Positions 6,887 to 20,957 of a stretch of 64,000 bases of DNA are shown piece by piece. Numbering within the stretch: the first letter of the stretch is position 1; the number at the start of each line of letters is the position of its first letter. The notes beneath the pieces were generated by a model that worked only from the letters and a program-made list of their open reading frames with translations, was not told the DNA's origin and made no database searches. This DNA comes from Lepidurus packardi. Lineage: Eukaryota > Arthropoda > Branchiopoda > Notostraca > Triopsidae. The stretch covers positions 6,754,790 to 6,818,789 of the forward strand of contig JAKZAN010000002.1 of assembly GCA_023053545.1 (NCBI GenBank). Direction: 5' to 3'. A program made the translations under genes and the position numbers.

Positions 6887-8175
6887 CTATGGAGCGGGGC
6901 CAACGATTCGATCCTTGTGGGCATCAAAGGCAGCGTGTAGCTCATCCAAGGACTGATCTGCGTCTATGACAATGACTGGAATGCTAAGCTGAGGATCCAT
7001 TAGCCACGCATCGTAAAGGCTATGTAGTGTTTCCAAATAGGGAAGTTGTACGCCGGATTCTTCGGGTCTCCCTCGAGCTCGCAAGCGTTCAAAGGCCACT
7101 TGAGGACTGGTTTTCAAATACACTAACAACCAAAAAAGGCATTTCATGGCCAAAGGTTTATAATTATCCCAACATATCAATTAAAGAACGAATAGCAAAT
7201 TAGCCGCCAAAAAGGTTGTCTCTGGAAAATAGAGAAAAAAAAACTATTTCTTGTGATGTTACCTTCGATCATGTGCGAAATAGTATTTAAGCTATTAACG
7301 ACAAGATAGTTCTTGAAAAATCTGGTCACTTGGCTTTGTGACTTAGAGAAAGTGACATTATCCTTGTACCCAATGTATACTGTTTTCATCCGTTAAAAAG
7401 TAGAGTAAAATAATGATAAAATCCGGAAGATGCCGTGACAGTTCCGCTACGTCACAATCGAAAACGTACACTACATTGCTTTGCAAGTTCATAGTTCTTA
7501 AGCCGTTCTTAAAAAAACAAACAAACAAAAAACACCTTTCATAGAGTAATGTAGGCTTTGAAAATGAACCAAAATTTAAAGGTTTTAAATTTTGGCGGCT
7601 ATGGCTTTTTTAAAAATAAGAATTTTGCTTTACCAATTAAGTCTAGCTTGATATCCGTATGCTTGTTTAAGGTCTCGTACCAGTTTGTTAATAAATGGTA
7701 TTCAGGATGAGACAAGGCACCGCTTAATTTGCCGTTTTCCAAATATACGAACCTGAAAGAAAAGTATTGAGACTTACATAAGCCAGGGGATTTACCGGTG
7801 CAGTGCCAACGGGAACCATTGGTTCCTACCGGTTGCTTTGCAGTGAGCGTTCAATGATCTTCACGCGAGCTGCAGTAGGTTGCGTGCGGATTTCTAATCT
7901 CGTTAATTGAACAAGGCTTTGGAACGTGCAAGTCCAGCGATTGCGGTCCTGGAACAGTAATTGCAGCATGTTTATGCCTTGCCAGTTTCTCCAAAGCTCG
8001 ACAGGTTCCTTGAAGCATATCCAATGAAGGTGTAAGAAACGCAAACAAAGGAGAATAAACAATGATTTACTGGACAGATCTCCACGTGAGCCAAATCTCG
8101 AAAATGTTCCAAGAATGTCGATTTCCCACTTCCCAAATTACCTTCGACCGAGACGATAAACGGGAGGCTTGCCAT
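6887..8175 (-). CDS. Deoxyribonucleoside kinase, copy 1 (TK2/dNK family)
   Basis: Phosphorylates deoxyribonucleosides with ATP in the nucleotide salvage pathway. Four coding exons on the minus strand: 8071-8175, 7830-8008, 7634-7752 and 6887-7122, giving 212 residues, close to the usual dNK core length. Visible motifs in order are the P-loop GNLGSGKST (residues 12-20), EPVELWRNW (substrate pocket), ERSLQSNR (the DRS/ERS-type motif), DLIVYLKTSP before the LID, and the LID arginine cluster RLRARGRPEE. The start is the only ATG just before the P-loop strand. All splice sites are GT-AG with matching phase. The two internal exons are 179 and 119 bases, identical in length to those of copy 2 next door, which shows a tandem duplication. 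It has no mitochondrial presequence in this model, so it is probably cytosolic or nuclear. Substrate specificity cannot be read from the sequence. Confidence 0.9.
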
Positions 8176-8405
8176 TTGAAAACTGTCTGAAGTGCTTTGA
8201 ATGCGCCGAACCGGAGTCTATTTCTTCTTCCTTTTAGTCTTGGCACGGAAACAAGGGTCCATTTCAAGGTCAGGAACTGGCGAGACATGGATCTCCCTGT
8301 CCATACAGGTACCAAGCTATCTCCCATACTTGTTCGGGTAGATTTCACCAAGTGTTAAGGAAGACAAAACGATCTCTTTTTATTTTGCAATGAAACAAAA
8401 CGATA

Positions 8406-8411
8406 TTTATT
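8406..8411 (-). terminator. Poly(A) signal AATAAA of kinase copy 2
   Basis: TTTATT on the plus strand reads AATAAA on the gene strand, 43 bases downstream of the kinase copy 2 stop codon at 8455. Confidence 0.55.
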
Positions 8412-8454
8412 GATAATGAAACGACATTTATGTTTACAGTTTAAATTAAAAGCA

Positions 8455-9344
8455 CTACTCTTGGTCATTTCTTTCTTGCAAGTTCAGAATTCGAGAACGA
8501 TGAAATTCATACTGGGCTTTCATGCCATCTAAATCTTGATTTGCATCCAAAATAAGGACAGAGGCTGGGATGGGATGGCAAGTTTTACCCGACAGCCAAG
8601 TCTCGTAAGCGTCGTGCAAAGCTTCTAAATAGGCTTCGGGAACATTTTGCTCTTCTGGCCTTTGGCGAGCTAGTAAACGCTGATAAGCGATTTCTGGTGT
8701 TGTTCGTAAATATACTATAAGAATACAATAGCGTTTGCTAGAAACTTGAAATGAAATAAGAGATCTATATATGTATTGTTCTCTACCTATAAGGTCCAAT
8801 CCCACGTCAAGACGCGCTGATAAGAAATCGTAAACCTCCGTTAGAACGGCATAATCTGGGTCGGAGATTGTGCCCAAGGACTTGCCAATCTCGAAGAAAC
8901 AACTCCTACAAATCCAATAACATGAAAACGCAAGGCCGTTAAAGACTTTTAGTATATAAAAATTGTGGGATGTTTACCGATTGTTTTGTAGGGAGCGTTC
9001 AATCATGCGAACTCGGGCAGAAGTAGGTTTAGTGCGAATGTCAAATCGGGTTAATTGGACCATGGCTTGGAAGGCGCCACCCCACCTTTGTGGGTCTTTG
9101 TAAAGCAAATCAAGCATATTATGACCTCTCACATTCCTCCAAGTATCAACTGGTTCCTAGTACCATACTTTTAAGATATATGTAATTAAATCGTGGGCAG
9201 TGTAAGACGTACGGGATAAGTTTCAACATCGGAATGTCCTTCAAAATACTTGAGTAATGCTGATTTACCACTCCCTATGTTTCCTTCAATAGAGACTGTA
9301 AAGGTATTCACATTTTCTTGGACTACAGGGGTGTTGGATGCCAT
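8455..9344 (-). CDS. Deoxyribonucleoside kinase, copy 2 (TK2/dNK family)
   Basis: Same family and reaction as copy 1, located directly upstream on the same strand. Coding exons 9213-9344, 8978-9156, 8787-8905 and 8455-8714 give 229 residues. Motifs: P-loop GNIGSGKSA, EPVDTWRNVRGHN, ERSLQNNR, DLIVYLRTTPE and LID RLLARQRPEEQ. The start chosen is the ATG at 9342-9344. The frame is open further upstream to a likely acceptor near 9450, and a separate ATG-containing exon lies at about 9500-9620. Joining that exon gives a frame that does not match the kinase frame, so it is probably 5' UTR or an alternative transcript. Splice phases agree throughout. A poly(A) signal lies 43 bases past the stop. Confidence 0.9.
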
Positions 9345-9998
9345 GATATCGGGTTTTATTGTCTTCAGTTTCTGGGATTCTTTGGCACGTGCCAATTTCC
9401 CTACGAGTAACCTCAACACTGCTCGAATGGACCCCGTCTTTAGTTTTCCCTGTAAAATTAGTAACAGATAAAGAGAAACGAGCAAATGATGTACAATACT
9501 TACAATAGTCACACGAAACAAAACTGCATAATTTACAAGAACGTAATCCTAAAAACACGTGCAGGCCTGTACACAAAAAAAAAGAGCGCCAGTTATTGTT
9601 TACTTCAGCCGATGCCATCTTGGAATGGCTCAAACCAATAGGAATCGAGGAATAAATACTAAGAATAGAGCTTTCAGCACCATCTATGCGTAAAATACAG
9701 AATAACTGGGTTGCGTCGCCGTGCTACCCAGTTCTTGAAACTGAAACTCATATTTCAATAGTCTACCTCTTTTGTACTCTTTTTAAGCGATGCCAAGTTT
9801 AATTCCTTTTTTCTCTCAGAATAACATCTGATAGAGGTAGAGCGGGGATTACAGGACTGATGTTTTTTGCGTTCGTTCGAGAGTTTTGCTAGGCTATATG
9901 AGACTATTCGTCAAGACAATAAGAATCACGTGGAGGCCAAACAGGCATGTATTGAAAGTAAACCTTTTCATAGATGATAACGAAAGGGTCACTGTGAT
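9345..9998. other. Upstream region of kinase copy 2 and 3' flank of the eL37 gene
   Basis: It holds the probable 5' exon and intron of kinase copy 2 (AG acceptor near 9451, GTAAGT donor near 9502). The rest, 9640-9998, shows no coding signal. Confidence 0.5.
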
Positions 9999-13535: not shown

Positions 13536-14865
13536 TCTTCCAAAACTAACACGAATAAAATTTAATTAATTTAACTTCTAACATAGTCTGAGCTTTCTCA
13601 AGCTATAAACGTATAAATATAGGAAGACACAGAAACCGTAAAAACGTTATTTTGCAGGTGAGTTTAACTTTTAAGAAACACCAAGACTACTTGTTGCTCA
13701 AGGTGAGCAAGATTTAAACATGAAAAAAAAAAATACCGGACAATCACCTAGAAGTATAAACCTATAAGCAGAGATACCAGATATGTCAGACATAAACATT
13801 GAAAAATATGCAAACTTTAGTTTGAGTTCTTATGCACCACGTTAGTTTACTTACCAACCTTGGCTTATGAACAGAACACTATTAACACCGAAGCCACGGA
13901 AACGGAAACTGAAATGTGCCGACGTGTGCTAGCCGAATTGAATAAACTTAATCGTATCGTGTCTGTTTTCTGCGTCACTCGTTGAGGGAGGAAGATACCA
14001 GATAGGGACAGAGAAATACGAAAAACGTTTGACATCAACGCCCTCAGCGGTTCGAAAGCTTCGTGTTGAAGTATTAACATTCGTAGGGAAAAAAGAAAAA
14101 ATTTAAAGGAACCGACAGTAGCCGCCGGGTTAGGCAGGTAATTAAACAGATAGTCTTGATTTGCCCAAGGCAATTCTTGGCGGAAAACTAACGAAGGGTT
14201 CAAGGTCGGTTATCGTTTGAAATGGAAATCATGACATGACGGCGTCTATGCTATGCAATGGCACTAACATTCTGGAAAGACCTTATTTGTAAGGCTTAGT
14301 AGTAGTAAATAAGTTAACCTATAATATAAAAAAGTCTCATGTATAATACATTCTTGTCTATGTTATAATAAACTTATTGTACAATTTTTAAAATTTTCTT
14401 ATATATTCGCAAGATATCGTTTCTAATTTTACGAATCTCTGTATTGAAATGCCTCCAAAATTATTGTATTATATTTAATTGATTGCGAAGCAAGATGATT
14501 ATAATTTCATCATTAATAATTTAGAGCTTTCTTCAGGGCGAATTAATCATGTTAAACGTGTTGTTTACTTTTCTTTTCCTTTGTACAAAATAGCTAGTTT
14601 ACTTTTTTTTATAACGCTATTTATTCAGCTGCCTTGTATTTTCTTAACATTTAAAATTTTAGCGGGTATGTAATTGCACAAGGATCGTCGGATCTTGTTT
14701 ACTAATTTTCATTGCGGAGCATTACGTAACTCGGGATTTCCCGTTGCGGTAAAAAAGCATATCGACAAACTTTAAATGTCACAAGGTTATAATCAAGCTC
14801 TATAAGTATCGTGAACGAGCTGCATAGTAACAGTTTCTCCGCTTGTGTTCAATTCTAACATCGGA
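13536..14865. other. Divergent intergenic region between GALE and the secreted-protein cluster
   Basis: The left part holds the probable GALE 5' UTR intron (13546-13854) and first exon. The middle, 14280-14660, is AT-rich with no supported gene. The right end carries the promoter of the first cysteine-rich gene. Confidence 0.5.
14801..14808 (+). promoter_or_regulatory. TATA box of cysteine-rich gene 1
   Basis: TATAAGTA lies 65 bases upstream of the ATG at 14866. About 12 bases before it is the block CACAAGGTTAT, which recurs before gene 3 and in weaker form before gene 2. Confidence 0.55.
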
Positions 14866-15313
14866 ATGTCGCGTTCTGTCTTTCTGGTTTGTTTCGTATT
14901 GTCCATTTTCATCGCTTCGCTGGGTAAAACGATTTCCTTTTCTAAACGCTAAATTTTTCTTAATAAAAATATTAACTTCAGATATGGCTGAAGCAGTAAA
15001 CCCTTGCTCGGTTAAGAAAATGCGGGAAGCATATAATGACATGAAGAAAGCGAATTGTAAGAACTGTGACAAGTACTTCCACTGTAAAGGAAACTACAAC
15101 GCAGTTCACAAATGCAGTGGAATTTTGAAAATATCCACAGCTGTGGCCCTCAGCAACGCAAGAGAACTATTTGGAGGCGATTATGGTACTAGAGATTCTG
15201 CTGCAGATCAAGCAGCCAACAAGTTTGGTCGTAATGGAGGAAACTGCGAAGGACGTTATTTGAACGCCGTCAGATGCTACTGGAAGCCTTCTAGTAAAAA
15301 GTGCCAGAAATAA
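14866..15313 (+). CDS. Secreted eight-cysteine protein 1, serum amyloid A-like
   Basis: Two exons, 14866-14923 and 14982-15313, encode 129 residues. Residues 1-19 form a signal peptide (MSRSVFLVCFVLSIFIASL), so the product should be secreted. The mature part contains segments that closely resemble vertebrate serum amyloid A: MREAYNDMKKAN, DKYFHCKGNYNAV and ADQAANKFGRNGG, in the same order and with similar spacing. It differs by having eight cysteines (residues 28, 45, 48, 54, 64, 108, 118 and 127), an even number suited to four disulfides, and a short Cys/Trp-rich tail in place of the Pro-rich SAA end. The intron is after the first base of codon 20, the same place as in the three paralogues. 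The role is inferred only from this resemblance: possibly an acute-phase, lipid-binding or immune factor. Confidence 0.85.
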
Positions 15314-15334
15314 CTACTTAAAAAATAAGTAGTT
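15312..15334. other. Small hairpin overlapping the stop codon of cysteine-rich gene 1
   Basis: Nine-base complementary arms (15312-15320 and 15326-15334) flank a five-A loop and begin inside the TAA stop. It may be incidental or part of the 3' UTR. Confidence 0.5.
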
Positions 15335-15689
15335 TAATAAGAGCTTTAGTGAGTCTAATCTAGAAAACACCAAGGTCATAATCAAGACTGTGTAACGTGT
15401 TCCCAATACAATATTTCCATGATAAAACAAAGTTGTTGTGTTAGCCTTTGTTTTGTTGATTCCGTAACTAATGTGCGGAGGTTTGAAGAGTCATGTTTTG
15501 CCTGAATGGAAATTTACAGTCTTTACAGGAGGTGGCTGGGGAATGTGATTTCATCATCGTAATACATGGGATATTGTTATTTTTATTAACCCACAGGTAA
15601 GTTGATACCTACCCGTGGGTTTACCCCAAGCCCTTGGAATATTAGCAAAATAACGCAACACAGACAATGACAAAAGGTTGCACGAGAAC
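15314..15689. other. Spacer between cysteine-rich genes 1 and 2
   Basis: No gene seen. It holds the 3' UTR of gene 1 and the promoter-proximal region of gene 2. Confidence 0.5.
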
Positions 15690-15696
15690 TATAAAG
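15690..15696 (+). promoter_or_regulatory. TATA box of cysteine-rich gene 2
   Basis: TATAAAG lies 71 bases upstream of the ATG at 15761, preceded by ACAAAAGGTTG, a weaker version of the block found before genes 1 and 3. Confidence 0.55.
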
Positions 15697-15760
15697 GTGT
15701 CGCAGTTGTTGGGTATATCAGCAGTGACTTTTCCAAGTCCAAATAGCAAAGTTTGCCATC

Positions 15761-16376
15761 ATGGTGATTCGTATTAGTCTAATTTGTGTCCTGCTTTCCG
15801 TTTTGCTGTTTTCACCCAGTAATAGTTATTTTACGCTTTTTTACTGCTTAATTTTAAGCTATTTTGAGCTAATTTAATCTATATTGAAATCACATACATT
15901 AAACCTGTTTTAAAGCTATATCAAAACTTATTTTTCGAACTCAGTGGAAATGTTTTATATAGTATATCTGAAAAAATTTTAATCTTTTGACTTTGATCTG
16001 TTTGAGTCTGGCTGATTGCTTCAGGAGTAATATTTATATCCTAGGCTGGGTGGAGGCAGTGAATCCTTGCTCAGCTGGCAAAATGCAAGAAGCGTATAGC
16101 CAAATGAGGGCAGCCAACTGTAAAAACTGCGACAAGTACTTCCATTGCAAGGGAAACTACAACGCAGTTCACCAATGTACCGGACCTTTGCGAATTTCTA
16201 CAGCTTTGGCCCTTAGTAACGCAAGAGAACTTTTCGGGGGCAATTACGGCAGTGCGGATTCTGCTGCAGATCAAGTAGCTAATGAGTACGGTCGAGGTGG
16301 AGGAGATTGCGACTCTCGTTATTTAACGGCTGCCCAATGCTACTGGAAACCAGCAACCAAAAAATGTCAGAAATGA
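15761..16376 (+). CDS. Secreted eight-cysteine protein 2, serum amyloid A-like
   Basis: Exons 15761-15818 (58 bases) and 16045-16376 (332 bases) encode 129 residues, with the same exon lengths and intron phase as gene 1. The first exon encodes a signal peptide starting MVIRISLICVLLSVLL. The mature part has the SAA-like segments MQEAYSQMRAANCKNCDKYF, HCKGNYNAVHQC and ADQVANEYGRGGG and retains all eight cysteines. The second half of the molecule ends YWKPATKKCQK, nearly as in its neighbours. High identity of the second exons and divergence of the signal peptides suggest selection on the mature domain. A poly(A) signal follows at 16531. Confidence 0.85.
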
Positions 16377-16775
16377 TTTATTAATATCAGTTTCGAAGAC
16401 CTGAGCTTTTTTGTAATCTTGCAGTTAACCAACAATATAACCAAACTTATGGCAACACAATATTCTTACTAAAACAGTGCTCCTATAGTTCTACTAGTTA
16501 CTCTTTCCAAATTTTTTAAATATCATGTGCAATAAAAATTAATTTTCAATTCCGACAAATTAATTGTTGAGATTCTGACAGTTAATTAGCTGAGATTCTG
16601 TTTGCTAGTGCTGCTTTCTAAAAACATCCTACTATGAAGTTCATAACTGAAATTTGACACGTCCTAACAGAAACGCGGGAGTTTTCTTCCGTTTATCACG
16701 GAAATTGCACAACCAGGATTCTACACAGACCAGTGATAAACTATTGCGACGTCAAACATATCACAAGGTTATACG
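16377..16775. other. Spacer between cysteine-rich genes 2 and 3
   Basis: No gene seen apart from the 3' UTR of gene 2 and upstream sequence of gene 3. Confidence 0.5.
16531..16536 (+). terminator. Poly(A) signal of cysteine-rich gene 2
   Basis: AATAAA, 154 bases past the stop codon at 16374-16376. Confidence 0.5.
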
Positions 16776-16782
16776 TATAAAT
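16776..16782 (+). promoter_or_regulatory. TATA box of cysteine-rich gene 3
   Basis: TATAAAT lies 70 bases upstream of the ATG at 16846. The block TCACAAGGTTAT is immediately upstream, as in gene 1. Confidence 0.55.
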
Positions 16783-16845
16783 GCAAACCGAGATCCTTGG
16801 GTACCGACAGTGTCTTTCACGAGCTCTTACTTGTAGATTGCAATT

Positions 16846-17296
16846 ATGTCCCGTCGTATTCTTTTACTTGGTTGCGTGGTGTACTTATTCGCCTCGCTCA
16901 GTAACAATACCCTTCTTTGCTTTTCTAAACGCTGGCTTATACTTGAGCACACACTTATATTTAGGTACGGTAGAGGGAATGAATCCTTGTTCGGTAAGCA
17001 GGATGCGACAAGCCTATAATCAAATGAGGACAGCCAACTGCAAAAATTGCGACAAGTATTTCCATTGCAAGGGAAACTACAATGCAGTTTACACATGTAA
17101 CGGACCTTTGCGTGATACCACGGCTAGAACCATCAGTAACGCAAGAGAATACTTTGGAGGCAATTACCGTAGTTCGGATTCCGATGCAGATCAAGTCGCT
17201 AACGAATACGGTCGCAGAGGAGGAAATTGCGAATCTCGTTACTTAAGAGATGTCCAATGCTACTGGAAACCGGCAAGCGGAAAATGCCAGAAATAA
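16846..17296 (+). CDS. Secreted eight-cysteine protein 3, serum amyloid A-like
   Basis: Exons 16846-16900 and 16965-17296 encode 128 residues. The signal peptide is MSRRILLLGCVVYLFASL; the mature part keeps the eight cysteines and the SAA-like blocks MRQAYNQMRTANCKNCDKYF, GNYNAVYTC and ADQVANEYGRRGG. The second exon is 332 bases, the same as in genes 1 and 2, and the start lies 1,085 bases from that of gene 2. The intron is only 64 bases. This copy is the most arginine-rich of the four. Confidence 0.85.
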
Positions 17297-17914
17297 GGTA
17301 CTCGTTTACCAGCTTGTACGGTCTTTTTAACTCTGTTTTCTTTACTAACTCTTGTTAACAAACCATGTAAAAGCAACTCCTATACAATACAATGGGCATT
17401 CTTAAACGTACAACAAAGTATAGCTATTATAAATCACATGTTGAAAATGATGGATTGTCTTGCTGGTTTCTGTTTTGCACAGCATTTTTAGGACAAAGTT
17501 TATTTATTTCGAAAACACGGACCACGAGTTGCCCATGTTTAAAGCTTTGTTGTGACGTAACAGAAGTGTCGTGGCGTGCTTACGAACAATTGTTACCACG
17601 GTTACTGTTTACTTTCACGCTTGCCTTGTAAGAAAAAAATTACACGATCTTGCTCCGGTGACAAGGAAAAGTACTGTATGACCGTCCACTTATATGTCGT
17701 GATACACTTCGTTACGGGCAATAAAAACTGACACCATATTTCATTATTAAGCTGACAAATAGGTTGCTTAGTTCCCAGACATCTGAAATAGGTTAATGTT
17801 AACTTTGAGAATGTTTCCGACTTCCTGCTAATCTAATAAGGAAACAGTATTTGATCGACATTCACTGTAAACACAAGCAGTCCTTTTTGTGCCGAGGTTA
17901 TCTAAAGTTCAGTT
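17297..17914. other. Spacer between cysteine-rich genes 3 and 4
   Basis: No gene could be supported. There is no clear TATA box before the candidate first exon at 17915, unlike genes 1-3; the closest match is a weak AATAAGG near 17834. Confidence 0.4.
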
Positions 17915-20900
17915 ATGTTTAAGATACTTACTCTGTGTTGCGTATTCGCTAACTTCTTCAGTTACAGTAAATACTACAGTATATAGGTTTCACAGTAGGA
18001 TAACTAGGGTATCTTCCCATGTAAAGGGTTTTGGGACCGACCTTCTCGTTCTCAAGATATTGTGAGGGGCCGAAAGAACATGGGAGGGATGGATTCACAG
18101 ACTTACCCATGCCCTCGCAAGGTAAGACATTCATAAAAAAAGGTTCGAGAAAATAATAAAACACGCACAAAATGGGGAGCTGGTAGCCTCTCTCTCGTGT
18201 ACTCCGGGGAGTCTTGGACTGCCGTAAGATTCAACCTGCATTGCGTTCTGTAAACCATCGTTACCTATTTTGAACGGCAATGGAAGGTTTAAAGGGGGAG
18301 TGAAGTCTGAAAAAAAGTGCTATAGAACAAACCAAAGGAAGTGTTCTGGTTGTAGAACCCCTATGCCAATTATGCATATTAACCGATTAATTAATTATTT
18401 ATTAATCCGCACCTTTCCACCAATTTCAAATCTTCCTATCCTTATAACATTAGGCCGGCCGGCCGGATTACAGCTGGCCGGAGGGCCAGCGTCTTCACCT
18501 CTTAGCGCATTTAAAATATGACCTTTGATTAATAGGGAAGGCACCATTATCTTTCTTTTTAATACTTAACCAATTTTTTAAACGCTTTGGCTACTTCACA
18601 AGCTTAAACGCAATAAGACAACTTTTTCTTTGCGCCGACGGGACTGTTGTTCCGTGGTTGCAATGGAGCCCAAGACGGGCTAGTCTAGCTTCTTGCCTGC
18701 GGGTAGCTGGCCCATGTTTTCGTAGCCTTGGCGCTTGTGTTCGTTTGTTTTTCCGCTCTAACTCAAGTCCTTTTGGCGTGCGTGTTTTTTATGTAGGTGC
18801 TGACTATTAGCTTTTATATTCTGTATTTGCAACATCTGTGAATAGAAATGAGTGATAGCGATAGCGTTTCAAGCGATTCTTCTACTTCAGAATCCATGTA
18901 CAGAATTGCTCTAGAGGCTATTACCAATAAATTTTGACTCGTATGCAAGTTGGCCATTTCTTTACCAGCGGGTGATTCTAAGGAACCTGGTATGCGCTAA
19001 ATTTACGATCATTCTATAAAACATCTTTGAACTTTTAGCTCTAGAAGTTAGTCAGGATGCGTCAGTCGACCTAGAAGAATAATTCTCAGACACAAATGGA
19101 ACACTAGATTGGTGCTCCTGTTTACATTGCCGGCATATGCCTACAAACCTGGAGAATCGCTGCTGTCGGAAATTATTTACTGATAGGCAGTTAGCTTTTC
19201 TGCACGAAAGTATTCAGAGACTTTGCATTTAGGCTTGAAAATTTATCCTCTTTCTAGGCAACCTAACATGCTTTTAGCCTCTGTTCAGTTTAAAGAAACC
19301 ACACTAACTGAATCGGTTCTAAGAATGTCACTAATTCTGCAATCTAAAATGATGGTCGAACCTATAGATTGTAATCTATCAAATAAATATAATAACAAAA
19401 ATTTTCCTTCAAGTTCTCAAAGGATTTTCGTCTTGCTCGTTGAAGATCTCTTAGATTCATGGAATACGGCAACTTTATCTACTGGATGTGTGGAAGTTAG
19501 GAATAAGACATGCGTAAAGTTCCTGCTTGCTGCTACCTAGCTATTCGAGAGAAATAATACACAAAGGCAGTAGAATTTATATGCCGTTATTGAAGCACAA
19601 CCATTAGACATGCCAAAGAGTTGCTAAATTACTCTTGGTTGCTACAAACCCATCTGTAAGTTATAGCAATGAAAGATAACGTAAAAATAGAGCCAGTTTC
19701 TTCGAATTGATTTATTGACTTGATTTGACTTAGAACGGAATTTTACTATTGCTAGGTAAGGGATAATTCAATATTTACATACATATACATGCCCTCCCCG
19801 TTATCCTTGGGTAGTGTGTCATTCGTCCAAGCTCCGAATCGGATCTTATTTTCTTTGGGCACGCATAAGCAAAGCGATGTTTCGCAACAAAGGTTCGTGA
19901 GCTGGCCCTCGTATTCATTCTCGGCTAATCTAACAATATCGCAGGTCTTAGATGCCCACCAAAGATGCCGGTTGATGCTTTCAGTCCAAGACGGCTGGCC
20001 AGTAAAAGTCAAGAAAAACTAATTGGATAAGCGATCTCTAGGGTGTTCATTGGGTAGATTTTTTTGGACACCATAGTACATTACCCTTTCATATTCTGGC
20101 CTTTTATCTGAATCTACTGGGACTGAGAAAGTCGGTCCAAAACTTTTACATTGGAAGGTATCCTAGTATCCTACTGTGAAACTTATATACAATAGTAAAT
20201 GGCACAATCAATAACAAAGTAGAACAGTATCCTCTTCCAAAAAGAAGCTACCGATGAAGTAAAAGGAAGCGAAGACTAATGCTAACAAGGAGCACCAAGC
20301 ACTCTGCTATGGTTTATTATTTAGCTTATTTTATTATCACACAGTGCCTAGGCAGGCAAAAGTATCGTTTGCCTTGATCAGTTGGGACACGTTGGTGGCT
20401 TTTATTTTTGATTGGGTAGTACCTTGAATGATAAATATACCTTGAATAACACCAAAAAAAAAACTTTGATAACGTCGAACATAATACCTTAAATATTTTA
20501 AAAATAAAATATCATGAGATGCAAATGAAAGTAAAATAATTTGGATAAAACTTAAGTAGGCTATCGTTAATAATATCACACTAATTAACAAAATTATGTT
20601 TGATTCACCATAGATAACGTTGACGCATGGAATGCTTGTTCGGCCAGCAGAATGTTGGAAGCTTTCATGGAAATGCGATTGGCCTATTGCGCCAATTGCG
20701 ACTACTTCTTTCATTGTAAATCATACTACGACGCAGTGCAAAGATGTTCCGGCTATCGACAAAGAGCTACGGCAGAACTGATGAGTGCTGCCCAGGAACG
20801 TCTAGGCAATAGCAATACCAACAACGAAAGCTTGAATTCCACCGCTCTTCAAGAAGCCAAAGAATTTGGCCGAAGTGGAGGAAGCTGTGATGAAAAGTAC

Positions 20901-20957
20901 TTAGCTCCCAACGGAACATGTCACTACAACCCGTATCGCAGACGCTGTTACTACTAA
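17915..20957 (+). CDS. Secreted eight-cysteine protein 4, divergent serum amyloid A-like
   Basis: The second exon, 20614-20957, is clear: acceptor CACCATAG, then a frame with MEMRLAYCANCDYFFHC, YYDAVQRC, EAKEFGRSGG and eight cysteines in the family order. It ends YRRRCYY and has an Asn/Ser-rich insertion in the middle. The first exon is proposed at 17915-17966: MFKILTLCCVFANFFSY, a signal-peptide-like sequence with donor GTAAATAC and the phase (one base) used by the other three genes. Its start is 1,069 bases from that of gene 3, matching the tandem spacing. Together they give 131 residues. This needs a 2,647-base intron, against 58-226 bases in the paralogues, apparently expanded by an insertion. 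The first exon is less certain than the second. Confidence 0.65.
18848..19560 (+). pseudogene. Decayed gene with a P2X7-type intracellular C-terminal domain
   Basis: An ATG at 18848 opens a Ser/Asp-rich start (MSDSDSVSSDSSTSES). At 19107 comes a block WCSCLHCRHMPT followed by LENRCCRK, and at 19444-19554 a block LRFMEYGNFIYWM then RKVPACCYLAIREK. These match in order the two conserved parts of the P2X7 C-terminal (P2XR_C-like) domain: the WCxCxxCxxMPT / CCRK zinc part and the YxxxxYW ... PxCCxxxIR part. The blocks are in different frames. In-frame stops occur shortly before the first block, at 19230, and at 19498 and 19504 within the second. A small intron may sit at about 18990-19037. It lies inside the intron of cysteine-rich gene 4. 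The stops and frame changes make it a pseudogene unless unseen introns remove them. Confidence 0.55.

Follow-up and report, generated by a model that had tools for sequence, protein, structure and literature searches.

Four tandem genes on the + strand (14866-20957, from the gene 1 start codon to the gene 4 stop codon) were analysed in a 64,000-nucleotide stretch of DNA from the crustacean Lepidurus packardi, hereafter the window, which forms part of a 13.5-Mb contig (JAKZAN010000002.1) in a whole-animal assembly of 108.6 Mb. Judged from sequence, they are true animal serum amyloid A (SAA) genes and belong to the Met-SAA family, part of the lipocone superfamily. Each would encode a small, apparently secreted protein with a four-helix core and a short fifth helix, the fold being that predicted for gene 3, and eight cysteines are invariant in an alignment of the four mature proteins. 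We propose, with moderate confidence, that the products serve as immune effectors: conserved, secreted SAA proteins locked by disulfides, which may act on bacterial lipids.

SAA is a leading marker of inflammation and the source of AA amyloid, and its original job is unsettled. Four Cys-locked crustacean SAAs, of which three retain the predicted active site and the fourth does not, would make it possible to test catalysis and immune function. The cluster would also allow a test of whether vertebrate SAA became prone to amyloid formation through losing an ancient disulfide. SAA has already been reported in crustaceans (PMC12018387) and in ticks, spiders and bacteria (PMC13163884). The eight-Cys variant and the covariation of helix-2 and tail Cys residues described below seem to be new. 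Neither was described, among the matches listed, in the openly readable literature on invertebrate, crustacean, bacterial and phage SAA, although Zamocky and Ferianc 2023, on SAA evolution, may show some of this.

The gene cluster and its SAA proteins

The Pfam SAA profile (PF00277) scored 72.1, 72.1, 73.2 and 52.3 bits for genes 1-4, respectively. All of these values exceed the curated Pfam cut-off of 30.8 bits, so the SAA blocks in the four genes are not a chance likeness. In a phmmer search against the PDB, gene 3 matched mouse SAA3 (E = 6.7e-14) and human SAA1 (E = 5.5e-12), with 48% identity to residues 7-92 of the latter (61.6 bits). Two bacterial SAAs compared with gene 3 gave 36% identity (50.4 bits) and 32% identity (38.9 bits). 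Because human SAA1 scores above both, gene 3 appears nearer to the animal branch and does not look like a recent bacterial acquisition.

A structural model of gene 3 was obtained with AlphaFold2 (AF2) from a ten-row alignment of window and locus sequences, with a mean predicted local distance difference test score (pLDDT) of 74.1 and a predicted template modelling score of 0.69. The model contains helices at residues 10-23, 28-42, 47-62 (with a break at 58) and 69-83, a short fifth helix at 88-92, and a small terminal hairpin. In a Foldseek search all six matches at E <= 0.001 were mouse or human SAA chains, and the matches include retinol-bound mouse SAA3 entries. The initial annotation had placed the genes in the SAA family from their motifs, and had named a Pfam search and a comparison with the SAA helical bundle as checks. 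Both support the assignment, with significant profile matches for all four genes and a predicted four-helix fold for gene 3. The further claim, that three SAA sequence blocks occur in all four genes, holds for genes 1-3, where the blocks are intact. In gene 4 they are degenerate, with DYFFHC for DKYFHC and ALQEAKEFGR for ADQxANxxGR.

Genes 1-3 each consist of two exons separated by a phase-1 GT-AG intron. Exon 1 carries a hydrophobic leader, plain by eye on the sequence, and exon 2 encodes the whole mature protein, including the SAA domain and its eight Cys residues. The exons lie on the + strand at 14866..14923 (start codon and putative signal peptide) and 14982..15313 for gene 1, at 15761..15818 and 16045..16376 for gene 2, and at 16846..16900 and 16965..17296 for gene 3. 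The encoded proteins have 129, 129 and 128 residues, and the tandem arrangement is as first described. Exon 2 of gene 4 (20614..20957, +) is clear and encodes a divergent SAA domain that keeps the eight Cys residues and has substitutions at the predicted active-site Asp and at the Asn position of ANxxGR. The candidate exon 1 of gene 4 (20279..20351, +) is uncertain, as is the leader that it would encode; its splice donor would have to be GC, and the alternative GT site is a weak one.

Pairwise identity in the mature part is 67-73% among genes 1-3 and 40-45% between gene 4 and these three. Ratios of nonsynonymous to synonymous divergence (dN/dS), calculated for genes 1-3 only, were 0.11 (genes 1 and 2), 0.12 (genes 1 and 3) and 0.24 (genes 2 and 3), from which purifying selection on these three genes is concluded. 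The corresponding dS values of 1.47, 1.87 and 0.66 suggest old, conserved copies and no recent burst of duplication. A Pfam search and a search using the gene 4 protein turned up no SAA genes in the 108.6-Mb genome besides these four. The protein search gave a fifth match (E = 0.522), which contains a stop codon. Extra SAA fragments were likewise absent from the 64-kb window by tblastn at E <= 1.

Covariation of helix-2 and tail cysteines

Relative to the His of helix 2, the cysteines of the mature proteins lie at -25, -8, -5, +1 and +11, and the rest are in the tail. Counted from the Gly of the GR motif, the tail residues are at +6, +16 and +25 in genes 1-3, and at +6, +17 and +26 in gene 4. 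Human and mouse SAA have Ala directly after the helix-2 His and lack Cys throughout the aligned region; the last residues of the human SAA tail are not known to contain any either. According to a review, AA protein contains no cysteine (PMC6117975).

To place these residues, bacterial and phage SAA domains were collected. In a scan of bacterial genomes the crustacean alignment returned 45 pattern matches, from which five loci were obtained; the patterns included Cys and were hence biased. Bacterial genomes were therefore searched with the Pfam SAA profile. This gave matches in two genomes of a 398-genome phylum sample, one being the centre genome itself, and in one of 48 genomes of a second order, again solely the centre genome. 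In the order to which G001 belongs, 76 of 153 genomes had a match, four of them already reached by the biased scan. Among 34 pattern matches obtained with a bacterial alignment, again with Cys in the pattern, two were relatives on phage contigs. With the four crustacean genes as query, none of 79 pattern matches in viral contigs encoded a relative. Viral contigs were also searched for an SAA in which Ala follows the helix-2 His; there was no match, and three loci that were returned are not SAA by eye.

In total, 106 loci were taken (L009-L054 and L058-L117), comprising the scan returns and 60 loci picked by hand from the order list, with some genes fetched twice. A domain-finding profile, built from 22 domains that all have the helix Cys one residue after the His (H+1), located an SAA frame in all 106. 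Removal of nine duplicates and two truncated domains left 95 non-redundant domains. The SAA-rich order (L014-L117) comprises small-genome bacteria of the Alphaproteobacteria, and its fetched loci are of two types, FHCK(A/G)NY and DKYKHAxxNC. One bacterial SAA (L024:1501-1935, -) scored 127.3 bits over the full length of the Pfam profile, a value that none of the five further bacterial and phage proteins scanned came near, and has transposase-like frames nearby (by eye).

The number of helix-2 Cys residues equals the number of tail Cys residues in 94 of the 95 domains. Most (61/95) have a Cys at H+1 and one in the tail; in 31/95 the helix Cys lies one helical turn on, at H+5, again with one tail Cys; and two domains have both helix residues together with two tail Cys residues. 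The tail position follows the helix position. In H+1 domains it is GR+14 (23 domains) or GR+16 (38 domains), and in H+5 domains it is GR+12 in 30 of 31, the remaining one (L116) being +12 by eye. The two double-Cys domains have tail residues at GR+10/+14 and GR+12/+16. A shift of the helix Cys by four residues one way is thus accompanied by a shift of the tail Cys by two to four residues in the opposite direction, a register shift of the kind expected if the two stretches run antiparallel and a disulfide links them.

This covariation suggests an ancient helix-2-to-tail disulfide in SAA. Genes 1-3 pair H+1 with GR+16, the commonest bacterial pair, and in one alignment C98 (mature numbering) falls in the same column as the bacterial tail Cys. 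Because the two cysteines covary in bacterial and phage SAA at the same spacing, the corresponding C34-C98 bond is probably ancestral, kept in the crustacean genes and lost in vertebrates, human SAA1 being without it. The remaining residues (C8, C25, C28, C44, C88 and C107) appear to be additions. The initial annotation had rightly listed eight conserved cysteines in all four proteins and regarded the set as a departure from classical SAA. That departure now seems to hold for six of them, since the helix-2 and tail pair is common in bacterial and phage SAA. Of the disulfide stabilisation proposed in the same place, one bond (C34-C98) is well argued, and the others are inferred.

Predicted active site, function and alternative readings

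SAA has been grouped with Wnt in the lipocone superfamily, for which chemistry on lipid head groups is predicted, with catalytic His, Glu and Asp residues on helices 2-4 and an sNxxGR motif (PMC12419801, 2025). The assignment of these residues to His33, Glu61, Asp75 and ANxxGR is our own, made from the text of that paper. His33 and Glu61 are present in all four genes, and Asp75 and Asn79 in genes 1-3. In gene 4, Leu replaces the Asp and Lys replaces the Asn (AKEFGR). The His/Glu/Asp set of the SAA-Wnt (SAW) clade is hence complete in genes 1-3 and incomplete in gene 4. The sNxxGR motif occurs as ANxxGR in genes 1-3 and is lacking in gene 4; the short fifth helix that goes with it in this clade is present in the gene 3 model. 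In one alignment the predicted active-site residues were found in seven of seven bacterial domains, with the motif Arg replaced by Trp in three.

On one phage contig, a frame (L053:3925-4563, +) fuses a peptidoglycan-binding domain to SAA, lies amid tail genes upstream of a terminase, and may be a so far unnoticed lysis or entry enzyme of the SAA type. A phage-like contig carries an SAA with two helix-2 and two tail Cys residues near an endolysin-like gene (L054:4689-5354, +). This phage setting is consistent with activity against the bacterial envelope, but it proves nothing for animals.

An immune role of the cluster is suggested by relatives induced by infection or lipopolysaccharide, the challenges used in the shrimp, clam and sea cucumber reports. 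As described in these, two neighbouring Macrobrachium genes (by identifier) annotated as serum amyloid A-5-like are raised by viral infection (PMC12018387), an SAA or SAA-like transcript rises on challenge in the Manila clam (PMC4234419), and a sea cucumber SAA is raised on challenge (PMC2702171). The mature crustacean chain begins at about residue 9 of the human protein (by eye). In vertebrate SAA the N-terminal stretch is the part that binds lipid and high-density lipoprotein (HDL). Since this stretch is largely missing from the crustacean chain, vertebrate-style HDL binding is not supported.

In the mechanism that we propose, the tail would be locked to helix 2 by the ancient C34-C98 disulfide, and the six further Cys residues would probably pair in three additional bonds that fasten the N-terminus, the turn between helices 1 and 2, and the tail. 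The proteins would most likely act as extracellular innate-immune effectors, those of genes 1-3 attacking bacterial lipid head groups through the predicted His-Glu-Asp site, and that of gene 4, with its Asp lost, probably binding without catalysis.

Several points weigh against this proposal. Catalysis by animal SAA is the prediction of one paper (PMC12419801). The gene 3 model is of moderate quality, with a template modelling score of about 0.5 to solved SAA structures, and an earlier AF2 run with four alignment rows, which was not used, gave a pLDDT of 46.6. The pairing partner of C34 in the tail rests on spacing and on one alignment; another alignment places C98 and the bacterial tail Cys in different columns, and the gene 4 spacing is +17 in place of +16. 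Among the 95 domains, one (L102) has an H+1 Cys and no tail Cys, and four have an extra mid-domain Cys. The domains are also not independent: most come from one order, and Pfam score, with some manual selection, decided which were included. Short-segment identity of bacterial loci to gene 1 reaches 43%, the first exon of gene 4 is unsettled, and the sea cucumber SAA, raised by other methods, was not significant on the microarray (PMC2702171).

The most serious competing view, which we regard as quite plausible although not probable, is that the proteins are non-catalytic binders, either opsonins or carriers of lipid or retinol, as is usually held for vertebrate SAA, with His, Glu and Asp in structural roles. 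The predicted fold matches mouse SAA3, including its retinol-bound entries, and gene 4 retains the cysteines of the fold while having lost Asp75 and Asn79. Against this view, His, Glu, Asp and the ANxxGR Asn are retained in genes 1-3 and in all seven bacterial domains aligned, and one phage SAA, encoded beside tail genes with a peptidoglycan-binding domain, has a context that suits enzymatic action on the envelope. Metal binding by the cysteines in place of disulfides is very improbable. The CxxC and HC spacing is zinc-finger-like, and gene 3 has weak matches to the SPT4 zinc finger (E = 0.0025 in the PDB, E = 0.086 in Pfam). The Spt4 score of 13.4 bits, however, lies below the Pfam cut-off of 25, none of 47 Foldseek matches is labelled as a zinc finger, and the single helix-2 and single tail Cys of most bacterial relatives move together, as fits a disulfide. 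We rejected the zinc-finger reading for the weakness of the Spt4 likeness and because the protein looks secreted.

The origin of the cysteines and of the genes also admits other accounts. Convergence between the crustacean and bacterial helix-2 and tail residues, with the eight-Cys set wholly arthropod in origin, would spare the loss that an ancestral bond requires in human and mouse SAA, both with Ala at the helix-2 place. We think it unlikely, though credible, given that the Cys follows the same His and that genes 1-3 share the GR+16 position of their tail Cys with 38 bacterial domains. Recent transfer from bacteria, or contamination, has a negligible chance of being correct and was rejected. 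SAA is admittedly widespread in one bacterial order, and the assembly has contigs with bacterial-looking COX1; the crustacean genes, however, have introns and putative signal exons, lie on the 13.5-Mb contig among eukaryote-like neighbours (SET, ankyrin and deoxynucleoside kinase genes), are closer to human SAA1 than to the two bacterial SAAs compared, and stem from old duplications as judged by dS.

Returning to the disulfide-locked effector that we favour, a broader history can be sketched, which we offer as speculation that is more likely wrong than right. SAA may originally have served bacteria and phages as a secreted enzyme that attacks lipids and is held by a cross-link, its tail being bolted to helix 2 beside the catalytic His. 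Some arthropods would then have kept the bolt and reinforced it by three bonds, giving a stable, amyloid-resistant antibacterial protein, and the vertebrate line would have lost it, giving the flexible, amyloid-prone, HDL-binding SAA of medicine.

Other features and comparison with known systems

Upstream of genes 1 and 3, a candidate promoter element, ACAAGGTTATA, lies at 14781..14791 (+), 85 bp before the gene 1 ATG, and an exact copy lies at 16763..16773 (+), 83 bp before that of gene 3. When one mismatch is tolerated, its match count is attained in 21 of 100 shuffles and is not significant, and the one support for the element is its matching distance from the two start codons. A perfect match to a kappaB-like site, GGGATTTCCC, at 14733..14742 (+), 133 bp before the gene 1 ATG, is suggestive only; such sites occur at three places in the window, and 16 of 100 shuffles reach that count. 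A near-palindrome, ACCCACAGGTA ... TACCCGTGGGT, was seen by eye at 15590-15625, upstream of gene 2.

Elsewhere in the window, deoxynucleoside kinase exons lie at 6887-9548 (-), apparently as two adjacent copies (by eye), with one exon confirmed by Pfam. In the host assembly (G000), contigs C52, C214 and C43 carry intact COX1 frames without TGA codons and are probably bacterial contaminants. Mitochondrial cox1 with TGA codons is also present in numerous nuclear copies (G000:C6:697216-698557 and other places), and a nuclear mitochondrial copy that was read by eye has cox1, tRNA-Leu (TAA anticodon) and cox2 in order, an arrangement that is a mark of Pancrustacea. The genome further contains at least 150 matches to the arthropod cuticle domain Chitin_bind_4, and globin domains in tandem pairs with a spacing of about 0.6 kb, as in branchiopod haemoglobins. 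These features point to a pancrustacean host, probably a branchiopod.

The Macrobrachium SAA-5-like genes, compared by their published description, are likewise annotated crustacean SAAs and are paired by identifier (PMC12018387). With vertebrate SAA (PF00277; human SAA1, 4ip8; mouse SAA3, 4q5g) the crustacean proteins have in common the family, the block order and the predicted helical bundle, and the human and mouse sequences likewise contain the His, Glu, Asp and ANxxGR seen in genes 1-3. They differ in carrying eight cysteines, in a mature N-terminus about eight residues shorter (by eye), and in a tail that ends in a Cys-rich predicted hairpin in place of the Pro-rich C-terminal end that is a feature of vertebrate SAA.

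The prokaryotic SAAs of the lipocone superfamily are 26-31% identical to gene 3 (one alignment of seven). In 61/95 a Cys directly follows the helix-2 His and is accompanied by a tail Cys whose spacing equals, or nearly equals, that in the crustacean proteins. They differ from these in that 91/95 lack Cys between helix 2 and the tail, 92/95 have only one helix-2 and one tail Cys (a count that excludes the region before helix 2), and two of six scanned are fused to a peptidoglycan-binding domain. All seven tabulated share the predicted active site of genes 1-3.

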